Assembly: GCF_004564135.1 (NCBI RefSeq)
Contig: NZ_CP038255.1
Location: forward strand, 3,149,501 to 3,213,500
Direction of reading: 5' to 3'
Source of the DNA: Terasakiella sp. SH-1
GTDB taxonomy: Bacteria; Pseudomonadota; Alphaproteobacteria; Rhodospirillales; Terasakiellaceae
DNA length: 64,000 nt
In this document: positions 3,774 through 9,187 of the stretch, in pieces
Layout: every line of letters starts with the position of its first letter
How positions within the stretch are numbered: position 1 is the stretch's first letter
Made by a program: the position numbers and the translations under genes
The notes under the pieces: generated by a model
Database searches by the model: none
The model's input: only the letters and a program-made list of their open reading frames with translations
What the model was told of the DNA's origin: nothing

Positions 3774-3814
3774 AAAAGCGCCATTCCCAGACAAGTTGGG
3801 AATGGCGCTTTTTT
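3774..3814. terminator. Strong bidirectional terminator between htpG and the DUF1223 gene
   Basis: A 16-bp inverted repeat: 3774-3789 pairs with 3797-3812 around a 7-base loop, with A residues on one flank and a T run on the other. It serves the two convergent genes; the last T residues abut the stop codon of the minus-strand gene. Confidence 0.9.
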
Positions 3815-4488
3815 TATAGCTTCAACACCGCAATGATTTTCATATCTGAGGTACGTTGTAAAAAGATGGCATGGCCTTGGTTTTCTTTCAGTCTTCTATT
3901 TGTTAAGTCAAATTGCGCAGGTCCACCTGACCATTTCCCAATAGGCACCAAATCAGTCACAATGTGATAATCGGTCAAAGTTTTCCCCCTGTTTTCACCT
4001 CGGCGCACCTTGGTTTCTGTCTCTTTCAGGTAACGTACATAAAAAACTTCTGCATGATCATTATGATTGCTTTTGATATGCAGGCTTCCGTCTCGAACAA
4101 CGAGGGAAACGTCAACGCCCGGTGTGTTACCCTGCCCAATTGCCCGCACAATATTGCGACGACGATTACCGCTGTCTTGATAGGTTCCATCCACAATCAT
4201 TTGCGGCGTATAGACATAACGCAACTCAAACTGGCGGGCATATTGACGCTGGCGATCAGAAAATTCTGATTTCGCATAAATATCTTTCCAGCCAATATAG
4301 TCCCAATAATCCACATGATAGGCCAAAGCCAAAACATCTGGGCGCAGCGCTAGTTCCCCCAAAAAAGCATCAGCCGGTGGACAGCTGGAACAGCCTTGGG
4401 ACGTAAACAGTTCCACCACATGAACACGCGAATTAGCCTGAACATGAAAAGACCATAATAAGGCAAAAAGAATAAGAACAATGCGCAT
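3814..4488 (-). CDS. Secreted DUF1223 thioredoxin-like protein
   Basis: A 224-residue exported protein of the DUF1223 family. Residues 1-19 form a signal peptide ending in VQANS, so the mature protein is periplasmic. The family motif ELFTSQGCSSCPPAD (residues 26-40) carries a CxxC pair (C33, C36) like a thioredoxin-fold redox site; the region YTPQMIVDG is also typical. Its biochemical role is not established. The start was placed at 4488 because GGAAG lies six bases upstream and the signal peptide begins there; a longer frame to 4539 exists but adds a charged, non-signal extension. It is monocistronic and convergent with htpG. Confidence 0.85.
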   Translation of the reverse strand: MRIVLILFALLWSFHVQANSRVHVVELFTSQGCSSCPPADAFLGELALRPDVLALAYHVDYWDYIGWKDIYAKSEFSDRQRQYARQFELRYVYTPQMIVDGTYQDSGNRRRNIVRAIGQGNTPGVDVSLVVRDGSLHIKSNHNDHAEVFYVRYLKETETKVRRGENRGKTLTDYHIVTDLVPIGKWSGGPAQFDLTNRRLKENQGHAIFLQRTSDMKIIAVLKL

Positions 4489-4583
4489 CTTAACTTCCAT
4501 TTTAGGTGATGGTTCCGTTAAGATTACGCGTTTGATCAATCACAGACCAATCACATCATGGTGATTTAGGGCCTAAGCTCAGA

Positions 4584-5621
4584 ATGAACGACCATTACGC
4601 ATTTATTTGTACATCATGGGACCAACTGTCCCCGCAAGCCTGTGCTTTCTTTCAAAGCGAACCAGACTATGCCAAACAGAAGCTTGAGCAATGTACATAT
4701 GGCTATCGCATCAAATGGGGCGAGGTTTTTACAAAATCCATCCACCTTGAAGGACTGGATGACCAGCCCCTATCCGTTTTAGGCACCGACTTAAAAATTG
4801 TAAAAGCCATGCTGACCTTTGGACGCGATAAGGCAGATGATCCCAATAGTACGCCGGACCTGTTTTTAAGCCTGATTGTACACTCACCAACCCCTATTGA
4901 GATTAATCACACCAGCGGTACAAAGATGGCGCTTGAGTTTCGAAACCAGATCAACGCCATATCCAGTGATCAATGGGGGCTTGGCAGTTTAGAACATAGT
5001 CGCAAAAAACAAGGCTGGAAGATTTATACATTAAATGACAGTGCTGCCCATTTAGAGACAGACCCAACCCCGTGGCTCTTTGCCTATACATTGATGTATC
5101 AGGGAAAGCTGACCTACTGGCGGATCAACCGCCAAATCTCCGTTGTTGAAGCCCATGAAACGGTGAAAGGATATCGTGAGGCAGCCCGTGCACAAAACCG
5201 TATCCGCCAGAAACTCATTGATATTCACCGATTACACCTCAGCGGCAATATATCGAATTTTGACGCCTGGAAAACCGCCAACCAGCAGGCAATTGAACAA
5301 ACAAACCTGAGGAATGTCGCTGAACAAGCCGCATCCGTCATGCAAATGCTGGATCAGCATATTGACCGGGTGGAAAAGTTACGGGCCGACATTGCTCAAA
5401 GCCAAACCAATCGAATTTTACAAATCATGACGATTGTCGGCGTGCCTGTTGCCTTGCTGACATTGGCCTTCACAATCTCAGACAGCGCCTTAATCTGGGA
5501 CAAAACACCCGCAAAAAATATGACGCTTAAGGAATTAATCGAATATGTGATTCTTCTCGGCTTTATTCCTTTTATCCTTTTGCTGGGGCTTTACGGTTTC
5601 TTTCAAGCCCGACGCGATTAA
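4584..5621 (+). CDS. Unrecognised protein with coiled coil and two C-terminal membrane segments
   Basis: A 345-residue protein I do not recognise. Residues 1 to about 170 look globular and soluble. Residues about 180-280 are rich in A, Q, E, R and L and read as a long helical or coiled-coil region. Two hydrophobic segments follow (about 282-308 and 316-340), with a short basic tail. The layout recalls CorA-type two-TM channels, but the GMN loop motif that defines CorA is absent. No signal peptide. It stands alone on the plus strand between two minus-strand units and its stop codon overlaps the end of the convergent FolC-like gene by four bases. Confidence 0.7.
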   Translation: MNDHYAFICTSWDQLSPQACAFFQSEPDYAKQKLEQCTYGYRIKWGEVFTKSIHLEGLDDQPLSVLGTDLKIVKAMLTFGRDKADDPNSTPDLFLSLIVHSPTPIEINHTSGTKMALEFRNQINAISSDQWGLGSLEHSRKKQGWKIYTLNDSAAHLETDPTPWLFAYTLMYQGKLTYWRINRQISVVEAHETVKGYREAARAQNRIRQKLIDIHRLHLSGNISNFDAWKTANQQAIEQTNLRNVAEQAASVMQMLDQHIDRVEKLRADIAQSQTNRILQIMTIVGVPVALLTLAFTISDSALIWDKTPAKNMTLKELIEYVILLGFIPFILLLGLYGFFQARRD

Positions 5622-6922
5622 AGATAAACAGCATCATCAGGTGAAATCCCCTTAAGAATACGGGTTACATCAGCACTGAAAAACAGACTTCCCAAAACAA
5701 AAACTGTTTTTTGCTCACGCTGTGCAATGTCTTTGACCTGTTGCACCGCTGAATAAATATCAGGGATCAGGCTTGTCTCCTTGCCCTGTTCCCTAAAATA
5801 TCCCGCAATGATTTCTCCTTGCTCGCCCCCACGTAGAGACGTGGTGACATAAAAATCAACAGGAAGCTCAGATAGTTCCTGTACAATTTCAACAACCGCT
5901 TTTGGTTTTGAAATGCCACATAAAACAATAAACTCATCGGGTTGATAGGTGGCGTTAATATAGCTGACCACTTCTTTCATCGCACAAGGCGTATGGGCCG
6001 ATTCCACAATGAATTTTGGGCTGTCATGTACCACTTCCCCCCGTCCGGGAATCTGGGTTTGAGACAAGGCACAATCAATTTCATTTTGGCTCAGCCGTGT
6101 CATTTGTCTTTGTTGAAGGAGATGATCACAAGCCGTGACTGCCAGCGCACTGTTCTCAATCTGCCATTGACCAATTGGGGCCGGGCGCAGATGCACCTCT
6201 TGACCATCATACAGACCACGGGCCTCATTCTTAGCCAAATCAAAAGACAGTTCTGTCCAGCGTGTCTTTAACAGCTGCCAGTCAAAGCCGCCCATCTTCG
6301 CAATATGGCCTCCGGTTTGGACGAGCCTTGTCTCTGGGGGCAGATTGGCAAGGCAGCACCCTTTCGGGGCTGTAATGGCGATTTTCTCCACCAAAATTTG
6401 ATCAAGGCTTGTTCCCAAAACAGAGGTATGTTCCAGCTCAAGAGAAGGCAAAACGGTCAATCTCGGCATCGCAATTCGGGTTGTATCCAAACGCCCCCCG
6501 ATCCCGGCTTCAATGATTTGGCAGGAAACATCATGGCGTTGAAAACAAAGCCAGGCCGCTGCTGTTAAAATTTCAAAGCGGACAAAGGTATATCCCTTTT
6601 CCTTTGCGATCACCTGACTGGCCTGCATGACCTCTCCAATCAGGTCATTCAATTGCGTCAAGGCAATAGGCGTACCATTAATCCGAATACGCTCATTTGG
6701 CTCCAGAAAATGGGGGGAGGTATAGGTACCAACCGTTAAATTCTTTTGTTTCAGTAGCTCTGTACAATAAAGGGCGGTTGACCCTTTCCCATTTGTACCA
6801 ATCAAGGAAATATCGCACTTGGGGGTAATGTTCAAACGGTCCAAAAGCGCCTGCATGCGCACAAAACCAATGCCATCGCCATATTGGGGAAGGTTTGCAA
6901 GTTGTTCTATGTGGGTCTTCAT
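5618..6922 (-). CDS. Divergent FolC-like Mur ligase (second folC paralogue)
   Basis: A 434-residue ligase of the folylpolyglutamate/dihydrofolate synthase branch of the Mur ligase superfamily. It has the P-loop GTNGKGS (residues 42-48), TSPHFLEPNERI, and EAGIGGRLDTT. Several usually conserved positions differ from the canonical FolC encoded 2.3 kb upstream: LEHTSVLG replaces the usual DH-type motif, EKIAITAPKG replaces EKAGI-K-type sequence around the carbamylated lysine, and ESAHTP replaces DGAHNP. It probably ligates an amino acid to an acid substrate using ATP, but the substrate is unlikely to be folate alone. Its ATG overlaps the stop of the ATP-grasp gene (ATGA), so the two are translationally coupled; it is the last gene of the operon. 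Confidence 0.8.
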   Translation of the reverse strand: MKTHIEQLANLPQYGDGIGFVRMQALLDRLNITPKCDISLIGTNGKGSTALYCTELLKQKNLTVGTYTSPHFLEPNERIRINGTPIALTQLNDLIGEVMQASQVIAKEKGYTFVRFEILTAAAWLCFQRHDVSCQIIEAGIGGRLDTTRIAMPRLTVLPSLELEHTSVLGTSLDQILVEKIAITAPKGCCLANLPPETRLVQTGGHIAKMGGFDWQLLKTRWTELSFDLAKNEARGLYDGQEVHLRPAPIGQWQIENSALAVTACDHLLQQRQMTRLSQNEIDCALSQTQIPGRGEVVHDSPKFIVESAHTPCAMKEVVSYINATYQPDEFIVLCGISKPKAVVEIVQELSELPVDFYVTTSLRGGEQGEIIAGYFREQGKETSLIPDIYSAVQQVKDIAQREQKTVFVLGSLFFSADVTRILKGISPDDAVYL

Positions 6923-7917
6923 TCTTCTAATGCTTTTTGCAACGCCTCTTTATAAAGGGACACAATCAAGTCCAGATGTCCGGCCTTTTCCAAAGCAGTA
7001 ACAGCTGGATTGCCATTTATTTCCAAAACAAATAAGTGTCCTGTTTGATGGCATTGAATTATATCAACACCGGCAATACGCAAGCCCAATGCCTGCGCAG
7101 CCTGTTTGGCAACACAAGCCAGCGCATCCTCAACCTCAAAGGACAAATTGTCATAATCCCCCCCGGCACTGAGATTGGCCCGTGAACTCAGCGTCACCAC
7201 TGTTCCGTGCGCCAAGACAGTTTCAAGCGTTGCCCCCATCTGGGTAAGATCAGCCACAAGCTGTTCAGATTGCAGATTAACAGGATCAAGACCATAGCCC
7301 CACATCCTGTCATTATAAGCATTCAGAAGTTCTGAAACCGTTTGCTTGCCATCCGCCGTAATTGTTGGGAATTTTTTACTGACACTATATTTAATGTCAT
7401 CATCCAAAACGAAAACCCGATATTCCGTTCCCTCAACATACTCTTGCAACAAGGCAATTTCAAACCTGGCTGCCATAGCTTTCAGAAAACGTCGTACCTC
7501 GTCATTGTTATAGGCAACATTCACATGGGCACCCAAGGCCCCATTCAATGGCTTGACGATAATTTTCTCCGCCCCTTGGGAGAACCTATCGAAATAAGGG
7601 GTCTCATCCAGATCAAAGCCTTGGTTGCGAATGGCTTTATAGCGTGAAGACAAAAAAACTTTTTGATAGCGCGGTGTCGCGATACCAGCACGTTCTAAAA
7701 GATCGGCACAAAATGCCTTGTCTGTTGCCAGCCCCGCCGCCACAGCTCCATTTAACGGCCAGCCGTGGGCACTGCCCCCACCAATATATGTTTTGCGATC
7801 CCCGTTTGATATTTCACACAGATAGCCACTATGTTCATCAATTAAGTCAAACTGATAGGAAAGAGCCTCTGCGGCGAGTTGTGCATAACGCACCGCAGGG
7901 CAATATATATTAGTCAT
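6919..7917 (-). CDS. ATP-grasp ligase similar to the cyanophycin synthetase central domain
   Basis: A 332-residue ATP-grasp enzyme. The order of motifs matches the ATP-grasp domain of cyanophycin synthetase and of the bifunctional glutathione synthetases: a dK...LLERAGIATP helix, IIVKPLNGALGAHV (glycine-rich ATP loop), LLQEYVEGTEYRVFVLDD, RANLSAGG, LGLRIAGVDII, and EINGNPAV for metal binding. It lacks the Mur-ligase half of cyanophycin synthetase, but a separate Mur-type ligase follows immediately. The ATG at 7917 has GGA seven bases upstream and overlaps the stop of folC by eight bases; an upstream extension to 7959 has no support. It likely forms an amide bond via an acyl phosphate; the substrate is unknown. 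Confidence 0.82.
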   Translation of the reverse strand: MTNIYCPAVRYAQLAAEALSYQFDLIDEHSGYLCEISNGDRKTYIGGGSAHGWPLNGAVAAGLATDKAFCADLLERAGIATPRYQKVFLSSRYKAIRNQGFDLDETPYFDRFSQGAEKIIVKPLNGALGAHVNVAYNNDEVRRFLKAMAARFEIALLQEYVEGTEYRVFVLDDDIKYSVSKKFPTITADGKQTVSELLNAYNDRMWGYGLDPVNLQSEQLVADLTQMGATLETVLAHGTVVTLSSRANLSAGGDYDNLSFEVEDALACVAKQAAQALGLRIAGVDIIQCHQTGHLFVLEINGNPAVTALEKAGHLDLIVSLYKEALQKALEE

Positions 7918-9187
7918 AAAATGTTCCGAGAAGATAAAGCGACCCACACACCAGCACACGCCCCGGCTTGTCGCATTCAGCCTTAATCAATTCAAAGGCC
8001 AAAGACAAGTCTTCACATGCTGTGGCATTTCCCCCTGCATCCAAAACCTGATTGGCAAGCTTTTCCGGTTTTTTAGAGGGCTGGTTATCAATGGGCACGG
8101 TATAAACATGATCGGCCAACCCGGCAATATGGGACAGGAATGCCTTGCTATCTTTGCGTTTCATCATCCCCATCACCAGATAAAGCGGCTTGTCATTCCA
8201 TTTTTTAATTTGGCTTCTCAAAGCTTGGGCCGCCGATTCATTATGACCGCCATCCAGCCACAGCTCCCACCCTTCAGCCAGCAACTGGGCCGTTTCAACC
8301 TGTTCCAAACGCCCCGGCCAGTGAACCGACTGCAAGCCGTTCAAAATCACTTCATTGGGAAAATGATACGTTGCTTTCAAAGCTTCAAGGCAAGCCAGTG
8401 CCAGTCCAGCATTGCTGATTTGATGATCCCCGCTTAACCCTGGGCGCGGCCAAGCGCTATCACCGTCCCAGCCTTCAAAAATCATCTGCTTGCCTGCTTT
8501 CTTGACAAACCATTCCCGGCCCTCACGATACCAGGCAATATCTAACTCTTTGGCTTTTTCTCGGATAGACTGATATGCTTCTTCATCCTGTTTTGCCATC
8601 ACGCAGGGCACATCGGGTTTCAGGATCCCCGCCTTATGGGCTGCAATTTCGCCCAAAGACTTCCCTAAGAATTCCATGTGATCATAAGAAATCGGCGTCA
8701 GCACCGTCAGGAGCGGTTTTGCCACCACATTGGTGGTATCGCCCAAACCGCCCAAGCCTGTCTCCAGCAACACGATATGGCCTCGGCTACGTGAAAAGGC
8801 AAGAAAGGCTGCTGCTGTAATGGCTTCAAAAACCGTCAGAGCCGCACCGTCATTGGCATTGATGGTTTCTTCCAAAAGCTCTTTGAAGAACTCTTCTGAA
8901 ATATCTTCGCCATCCAGATTGATACATTCATGGGGGCGAATAAGATGCGGGGAGGTAAAACTGTGGACACGATAGCCTGCGGTTTCAAACAGGCTACGCA
9001 AAAAAGCAATGGTGGAGCCTTTGCCATTGGTCCCTGCGACATGAATGATCGGTGGAATTTTATCCTGTGGGTTATCCAGACGCGACAAAAGGGCCTGAAA
9101 ACGATCCAGGCCCAAATCAATGTCCTTGGTGTGGAGTTTCTCCACATCCTTGAGGAGCTGACTGCTACTCAGCGGGAGTCTCCTCAT
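7910..9187 (-). CDS. folC: Bifunctional dihydrofolate synthase / folylpolyglutamate synthase
   Basis: A 425-residue canonical FolC, which adds glutamate to dihydropteroate and then extends the tetrahydrofolate polyglutamate tail in the cytoplasm. Motifs seen are AGTNGKGST (P-loop), TSPHLIRPHECI, LLETGLGGLGDTTN, SYDHMEFLG, KAGILK and LDGGHNESAA. The frame is open to 9331, but that part lies inside accD, so I place the start at the ATG 9187, which overlaps the accD stop by 23 bases and is followed directly by conserved sequence. The accD-folC pairing is usual in alphaproteobacteria and implies co-transcription. Confidence 0.92.
   Translation of the reverse strand: MRRLPLSSSQLLKDVEKLHTKDIDLGLDRFQALLSRLDNPQDKIPPIIHVAGTNGKGSTIAFLRSLFETAGYRVHSFTSPHLIRPHECINLDGEDISEEFFKELLEETINANDGAALTVFEAITAAAFLAFSRSRGHIVLLETGLGGLGDTTNVVAKPLLTVLTPISYDHMEFLGKSLGEIAAHKAGILKPDVPCVMAKQDEEAYQSIREKAKELDIAWYREGREWFVKKAGKQMIFEGWDGDSAWPRPGLSGDHQISNAGLALACLEALKATYHFPNEVILNGLQSVHWPGRLEQVETAQLLAEGWELWLDGGHNESAAQALRSQIKKWNDKPLYLVMGMMKRKDSKAFLSHIAGLADHVYTVPIDNQPSKKPEKLANQVLDAGGNATACEDLSLAFELIKAECDKPGRVLVCGSLYLLGTFYD

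Follow-up and report, generated by a model that had tools for sequence, protein, structure and literature searches.

What would a bacterium make with an ATP-grasp ligase and a divergent FolC-like ligase, encoded by overlapping genes directly behind its canonical folC gene? This question is raised by 64,000 nucleotides of Terasakiella sp. SH-1 (contig NZ_CP038255.1, positions 3,149,501 to 3,213,500), hereafter the window, to which all plain coordinates below refer. The two genes form a conserved module of several alphaproteobacterial lineages and of Pseudoalteromonas, and we put at about one half the probability that they encode a two-step ligase module for a small peptide-type metabolite other than folate. 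The genes concerned are the following (aa, amino acids):

6919..7917, minus strand: ATP-grasp ligase P0001, 332 aa, of its own family; overlaps folC by 8 bases and the FolC-like gene by 4.
5618..6922, minus strand: FolC-like Mur-type ligase P0002, 434 aa, belonging to the sister clade of FolC.
7910..9187, minus strand: canonical folC; start at 9187 placed after the congener locus L117, the listed open reading frame extending to 9331.

Both reading frames lie where the original prediction had them, and its junctions were confirmed: the folC stop codon (7912-7910) follows the ATG of the ATP-grasp gene (7917) with an 8-base overlap, and the ATP-grasp and FolC-like genes meet in the four bases ATGA. 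Upstream of folC on the minus strand are trpF, trpB, trpA and accD, recognised by sequence alone, and canonical folC is probably co-transcribed with the pair. The distance of 2.3 kb once given between the two FolC-type genes is correct from start to start, whereas the actual gap is about 1 kb. The GC content of the cassette (46-47%) is inside the range of its neighbours (44-52%), and thus gives no evidence of recent transfer.

Is the FolC-like protein simply a second FolC? Searches with profile hidden Markov models bore out the FolC/Mur and ATP-grasp identities initially assigned to the two proteins. P0002 passes Pfam Mur_ligase_C (38.5 bits, cutoff 28.4) and the curated FolC subfamily model TIGR01499 (240.6 bits, cutoff 162.65), and stays below the cutoffs of both bifunctional FolC equivalog models (125.9 against 360, and 124.5 against 700), a test that separates little since the canonical FolC of the window also falls short of them (201.2 and 193.9 bits). 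The cyanophycin synthetase (CphA) model gives P0002 21.1 bits against a cutoff of 850. As TIGR01499 accepts all six members of the FolC-sister family that were scanned (211.6 to 273.7 bits), genes of this family would be named FolC by that model. The AlphaFold model of P0002 is confident (pLDDT 89.5), and Foldseek places E. coli FolC 1w78 first (E 1.7e-26), with MurE (best 6.6e-15) and CphA (8.0e-13) behind it, the best PDB match being E. coli FolC with DHPP.

The main Mur/FolC tree was built from 34 hand-picked rows, including 13 FolC-like proteins (P0002 among them), 11 FolC proteins (among them that of E. coli) and 6 CphA Mur domains, one of them cut by position. The FolC-like clade is sister to FolC with a support of 100/98 (FolC clade, 95/85), and P0002 falls outside the FolC clade holding the E. 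coli protein; this fits the earlier proposal that it is no plain duplicate of FolC. A clade uniting the FolC-like proteins with the CphA Mur domain is rejected by the approximately unbiased (AU) test (p 0.0015). Within its own clade, P0002 forms a long branch at the base, the other 12 members joining at 83/92, and it is 25-29% identical to them. Two quick trees were also drawn from hand-picked rows: one of 57 rows sets FolC apart from the P0002 side with a support of 99, and one of 51 rows with Mur outgroups, from which 11 FolC rows had been dropped, gives FolC only 66, and 96 to the FolC-like proteins together with protein A, a Mur-type ligase of congeners described below. A long-branch warning attaches to all these trees, and to the ATP-grasp tree as well.

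In the FolC-like clade, the P-loop, E138, H165, K180 and R294 are invariant. Comparison of 21 FolC rows with 14 long FolC-like rows shows that positions fixed in FolC (E. coli numbering) are changed in the latter: N157 to Arg, D172 to Glu and T122 mostly to Gly, while N306 is mostly Thr or Ser in the clade. P0002 itself has Arg149, Glu164, Val114 and Thr at these positions. T122 and N157 of FolC are, we assume, close to the pterin. On these residues P0002 looks active, with an altered acceptor side. The motif differences from canonical FolC pointed out earlier (LEH, EKIAITAPKG, ESAHTP) are real, and the EH and HT/HS changes among them are common to the clade.

The ATP-grasp protein passes the cutoff of Pfam RimK (56.8 bits, cutoff 21), and also those of ATP-grasp_3 and GSH-S_ATP. 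Its best NCBIfam similarity is to CphA (TIGR02068, 100.2 bits against a cutoff of 850), and it likewise stays below the cutoffs of the GshAB model NF002688 (86.8 against 425) and of RimK-type TIGR00768 (63.1 against 143.4). Its AlphaFold model is confident (pLDDT 91.1), with GshAB 3ln6 (best by E-value), then CphA 7wae, as Foldseek neighbours. In a tree of 27 family rows (P0001 and members from 26 of the 74 loci counted below) and 22 others, the family stands on one side of a starred branch (97), and CphA, NAGGN and Ddl on the other; judged from sequence, it is thus placed outside CphA, NAGGN synthetase and Ddl. The candidates L028/L035 and L084 fall outside the family clade in this tree and were left uncounted.

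K67, K122, R167, N248, D285 and E299 are kept in all 27 aligned family rows. Equated by motif with TeCphA1, itself unaligned, they correspond to K220, K261, R309, N394, D431 and E450, residues described for TeCphA1 in PMC9427784. N248 and S250 match, again by motif, the aspartate-binding N394 and S396 of TeCphA1 (PMC9427784). The residue equivalent to R458, which holds the aspartate alpha-carboxylate in TeCphA1 (PMC9427784), is by motif Thr in P0001 and Arg in 14 of the 27 family rows. At the position of the P-loop-G residue H267 of TeCphA1, P0001 has Leu, 22 of the 27 rows have Arg and none has His, while the six CphA rows show five Gln and one His. With its catalytic residues kept, P0001 looks active.

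How far are the two genes kept together? In a class sample of 385 genomes, P0001 has matches at E 1e-20 or better in eight, the window's included; one of these, G304, was discarded as a family member, being outside the family clade in the ATP-grasp tree. The FolC-like gene lies directly downstream of the ATP-grasp gene in G099, G284 and G181, the last with the gene order of the window (trp-accD-folC-ATP-grasp-FolC-like) and a 15-base gap behind folC; in G125 the contig ends behind the ATP-grasp gene. The pairs of this first set are 27-38% identical to the window's proteins, and their recurrence in distant genomes indicates that the arrangement is not due to chance. A phylum sample adds three paired genomes (G631, G615, G701). 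With P0001 alone as query, scans of named genomes and of viral contigs yielded no relative. When the query was an alignment led by a more central member, at least 80 loci came up in named genomes, and the viral contigs scanned again gave none. Six of the 80 loci (L234, L235, L237, L238, L239, L241) belong to other ATP-grasp families and were removed before counting.

The FolC-like gene is directly downstream in 68 of the 74 remaining loci, which come from named genomes and bins and are counted, here and below, among the matches listed. The two genes overlap in 62 of these 68 loci, abut in five and are separated by 22 bases in one, taking the nearest in-frame start for the FolC-like gene, a choice biased towards short distances. 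Labels of paired loci include Bradyrhizobium (34), Rhodopseudomonas (6), Tardiphaga (6) and Pseudoalteromonas (2), and the lineages are the window's genus, G181/G284, UR115, bog_933, BS301-5m, Nitrobacteraceae with neighbours, and Pseudoalteromonas. The locus L198, with the label Acetobacteraceae, falls within the Bradyrhizobium-type set and is not taken as a separate lineage. The unpaired loci are those of a Rhodospirillaceae bacterium, three Methylococcaceae loci, a Paceibacterota bin and an Oligoflexales bin, and the sequence downstream is short at L169 (661 bases) and L208 (1850 bases). The Methylococcaceae bin GLR68 (L166, L168) has two divergent lone ATP-grasp copies and two FolC-scoring proteins. 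The Paceibacterota (L203) and Oligoflexales (L208) bins have alike neighbourhoods round the lone ATP-grasp gene, and one of the two contigs may be misbinned.

Choosing genomes by the FolC-like gene removes the selection by ATP-grasp. Four of the 385 genomes of the class sample then stand out (537-614 bits, the next reaching 237.6), the window's included, all with the ATP-grasp gene. The long FolC-like gene is also present in 18 of 149 genomes of one family, and the ATP-grasp gene lies upstream in the 15 of them newly fetched as well as in the other three (G631, G615, G701), which makes 22 of 22 genomes. A long FolC-like gene thus implies the ATP-grasp gene, and not the reverse, and the adjacency, which the original prediction had singled out for checking, extends well beyond close relatives. 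Over 11 pairs the distances of the two proteins correlate with r 0.84, a value reached in 0 of 5000 permutations; with one pair per lineage, the 8 pairs give r 0.57, reached in 62 of 40320 permutations. Shared descent alone would also give such a correlation.

Do these genomes have another enzyme for folate? All nine genomes of one paired set contain one protein of the FolC-like type (445-680 bits) along with a second that scores as FolC (130-180 bits); in five unpaired genomes of unstated completeness, the best score was 236 bits or there was none. In another set, two FolC-scoring proteins are present in 7/7 paired genomes, and since UR115 occurs in both sets, 15 of 15 distinct paired genomes have a second one. 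These second proteins lie inside FolC for six of the seven genomes of the latter set, the one that entered the 57-row tree. Together with the altered acceptor side, the second FolC-scoring protein argues against a folate housekeeping role of the FolC-like ligase.

The slot behind folC is occupied otherwise in the five congeners (G001-G005), in which the P0001 family is absent, only weaker matches to other ATP-grasp proteins being found. All five have, from folC to the DUF1223-like gene, a Mur-type protein A (370-376 aa) and a 369-aa FolC-like protein, joined by 23- and 4-base overlaps, with the thioredoxin-like/DUF1223 gene directly behind. In this overlapping pair (L114-L118, e.g. L114:6196-8414), protein A carries GSKGKGT and GRGVRFDEGGQ, and the short FolC-like protein is without part of the central domain. 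Proteins of type A are rare (5 of 372 genomes at E 1e-30), and one lies behind folC in G074. Two further genes of the window concern this exchange:

4584..5621, plus strand: CorA-like protein M, 345 aa, with a C-terminal membrane hairpin read from sequence.
3814..4539, minus strand: thioredoxin-like/DUF1223 gene, named from sequence; borders the exchanged segment.

M and P0002 are convergent, their tails sharing 4 bases, and M has no match in any of the five congeners. The window's species therefore carries a different ligase pair than its congeners in the same slot, plus M. An ATP-grasp and full-length FolC-like pair versus two Mur-type ligases at one locus constitutes a natural experiment on interchangeable steps.

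What could two such ligases do together? FolC and CphA-type enzymes convert a carboxylate into an acyl phosphate, which is then attacked by an amino group (PMC10861534, PMC9427784). The module would probably combine two ATP-dependent, acyl-phosphate-type ligases, synthesized in step through translational coupling. The ATP-grasp enzyme would most likely activate a carboxylate and join an amino acid to it; the FolC-like enzyme would then activate a carboxylate of this molecule, by analogy with its FolC and Mur relatives most likely one of a side chain or in gamma position, and add a second amino acid. Here we infer the common product, the order of steps and the amino-acid substrates: as both active sites are kept and the genes overlap, the simplest account is a small molecule on which two amide bonds are made in succession. 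A wider proposal is made tentatively, with the odds somewhat against it: a FolC-sister ligase family, whose long form would work only with its own ATP-grasp family, would make a new peptide-type metabolite or cofactor, be swapped in congeners for two Mur-type ligases, and sometimes be joined by a CorA-like protein and, in Pseudoalteromonas, by a possible phytochelatin-synthase-like peptidase.

Several observations weigh against a dedicated two-ligase module. The short FolC-like proteins of congeners belong to the clade of P0002 and have a Mur-type partner without an ATP-grasp protein. In 6 of the 74 loci, and in G063, the ATP-grasp gene occurs alone, and can thus exist without a FolC-like partner. 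As many as 48 of the 68 paired loci are labelled Nitrobacteraceae, which brings the independent lineages to about seven, and none of the 22 largest neighbour clusters, the pair aside, extends beyond Nitrobacteraceae-type loci. Finally, Ser473, modelled as a glutamate-binding residue of FPGS (PMC10861534) and equated by motif with E. coli S403, is Gly in 13 of the 14 long rows and Ser in P0002 (S412), so that the window's own protein could still take glutamate.

Could the substrate be folate after all? The main rival, unlikely on balance and the one to be taken most seriously, is that the module adds alpha-linked or non-glutamate residues to the folates made by the neighbouring FolC, or modifies a pterin. 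It is kept alive by the position of the pair behind folC in some lineages, namely in the window, where it overlaps folC, and in G181, and Mur-type ligases also follow folC in the congeners and G074; the FolC fold of P0002, matched best by the DHPP-bound E. coli enzyme, would suit it, and PMC1971073 mentions alpha linkages in the folate tails of E. coli. The pair lies away from folC in the UR115, Nitrobacteraceae and Pseudoalteromonas loci viewed, and the FolC-invariant T122 and N157 are changed. That P0002 is merely a FolC isozyme, next to an ATP-grasp protein with another job, is improbable: P0002 does exceed the curated TIGR01499 cutoff, while its equivalog scores (125.9 versus 360), the sister position of its clade (100/98) and the constant company of the ATP-grasp gene beside the long form (22/22 genomes) point elsewhere.

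The arrangement also recalls CphA, and a split two-ligase system for a peptide, a polyglutamate-like chain or a modified pterin had been proposed on that basis. This reading is partly supported: a conserved two-ligase unit with both active sites kept is found, and its descent from a split CphA finds no support. A split cyanophycin-type polymerase making an Asp-Arg-like storage polymer is very improbable, as the Mur-type partner is of another kind than the Mur domain of CphA (AU p 0.0015), the ATP-grasp protein belongs to a separate clade, is too short at 332 aa for an N domain, and has Thr for R458, even though profile, sequence and fold all place it nearest to CphA and GshAB and it matches the aspartate-binding N394/S396 by motif. 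The least probable alternative is that the pair makes a small signal or ligand for the adjoining CorA-like membrane protein, in the window as in Pseudoalteromonas. Both Pseudoalteromonas loci show the order X, ATP-grasp, FolC-like, then a 221-aa protein:

L167:6453-7493 and L173:6733-7776: protein X, 346/347 aa, upstream of the ATP-grasp gene, perhaps homologous to M.
L167:10314-10979 and L173:10314-10979: 221-aa protein immediately after the pair, containing the stretch NFCGICSL.

M and X are alike in length and in their C-terminal membrane hairpin, and their weak similarity gave the best two non-self matches among 3558 open reading frames (E 0.002 and 0.008); M also weakly resembles CorA (Pfam E 0.0011, under the cutoff; PADLOC CorA E 0.0025). 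The M-X similarity is nevertheless marginal (1 of 2000 shuffles higher; hhalign probability 5.8), and no further match at E 1 was found among the loci searched. A role of M as an accessory of the ligase cassette is possible on this weak evidence. The 221-aa protein matches the phytochelatin-synthase Pfam family below the cutoff (E 0.066 and 0.1) and no family above it; its NFCGICSL stretch is, we presume, phytochelatin-synthase-like.

Other collections were searched as well. PADLOC has no match for P0001 or P0002, and PHROGs gives the pair only two phage families, one RimK-like and one unnamed and FolC-like. P0002 matches phrog_16655, of unassigned function, with 198.6 bits over its whole length, which indicates that phages carry FolC-type ligases too. 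P0001 matches eight phage records, all without annotation, and 105 plasmid records, the 40 listed being CphA, NAGGN or GshAB where annotated. On two Rhizobium plasmids (L246:7001-9216; L247:6833-9049), a stand-alone ATP-grasp gene, annotated as cyanophycin synthetase or hypothetical protein, precedes two small hypothetical genes that match in lengths and spacing. A 1080-aa Pigmentiphaga protein (L237:5856-9098) seems, read from sequence, to combine a hexapeptide-type acetyltransferase with two ATP-grasp domains.

Taken together, a long FolC-like gene, where sampled, signals a second ligase chemistry alongside folate synthesis, which default annotation would hide since these proteins pass the FolC cutoff. 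As the module occurs in culturable genera (Bradyrhizobium, Rhodopseudomonas, Tardiphaga, Pseudoalteromonas), its product is open to direct search by deletion and metabolomics. No description of this ATP-grasp/FolC-like pair was found among the papers listed in searches of the open-licence literature, subscription papers being mostly outside the search. The nearest prior work, as far as the parts consulted go, concerns CphA1 (PMC9427784, PMC9262961), pseudomurein ligases (PMC11915815) and predicted operons that contain ATP-grasp or Mur ligases (PMC2922099).

How does the pair compare with known systems? P0002 shares with FolC (TIGR01499; PDB 1w78) the fold, the P-loop and the catalytic Glu, His, Lys and Arg, its clade being sister to it; it differs by the changes at N157 (Arg), D172 (Glu), T122 (mostly Gly, Val in P0002) and HN (mostly HT/HS), by the ATP-grasp gene beside every long form sampled, and by the further FolC-scoring protein present. 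Like CphA1 (TIGR02068; PDB 7wae, 7lg5), the module brings together an ATP-grasp and a Mur-type ligase and keeps the ATP-grasp catalytic residues; unlike it, it consists of two genes, with a FolC-sister as Mur partner, an ATP-grasp protein outside the CphA clade and no N domain. The ATP-grasp domain of GshAB/GshF (PDB 3ln6) is the best Foldseek match of P0001 by E-value, whereas P0001 is without the gamma-glutamylcysteine ligase domain and reaches 86.8 of the 425 bits of that model. RimK-type alpha-L-glutamate ligases (TIGR00768, MptN, CofF) are likewise carboxylate-acting ATP-grasp enzymes, and P0001 passes Pfam RimK while missing the TIGR00768 cutoff (63.1 versus 143.4 bits). Pseudomurein and peptidoglycan ligases (PMC11915815) belong to other clades, and no cell-wall genes were noticed in the neighbourhoods viewed; what they share with the proposed module is the principle that Mur and ATP-grasp ligases act on one peptide.

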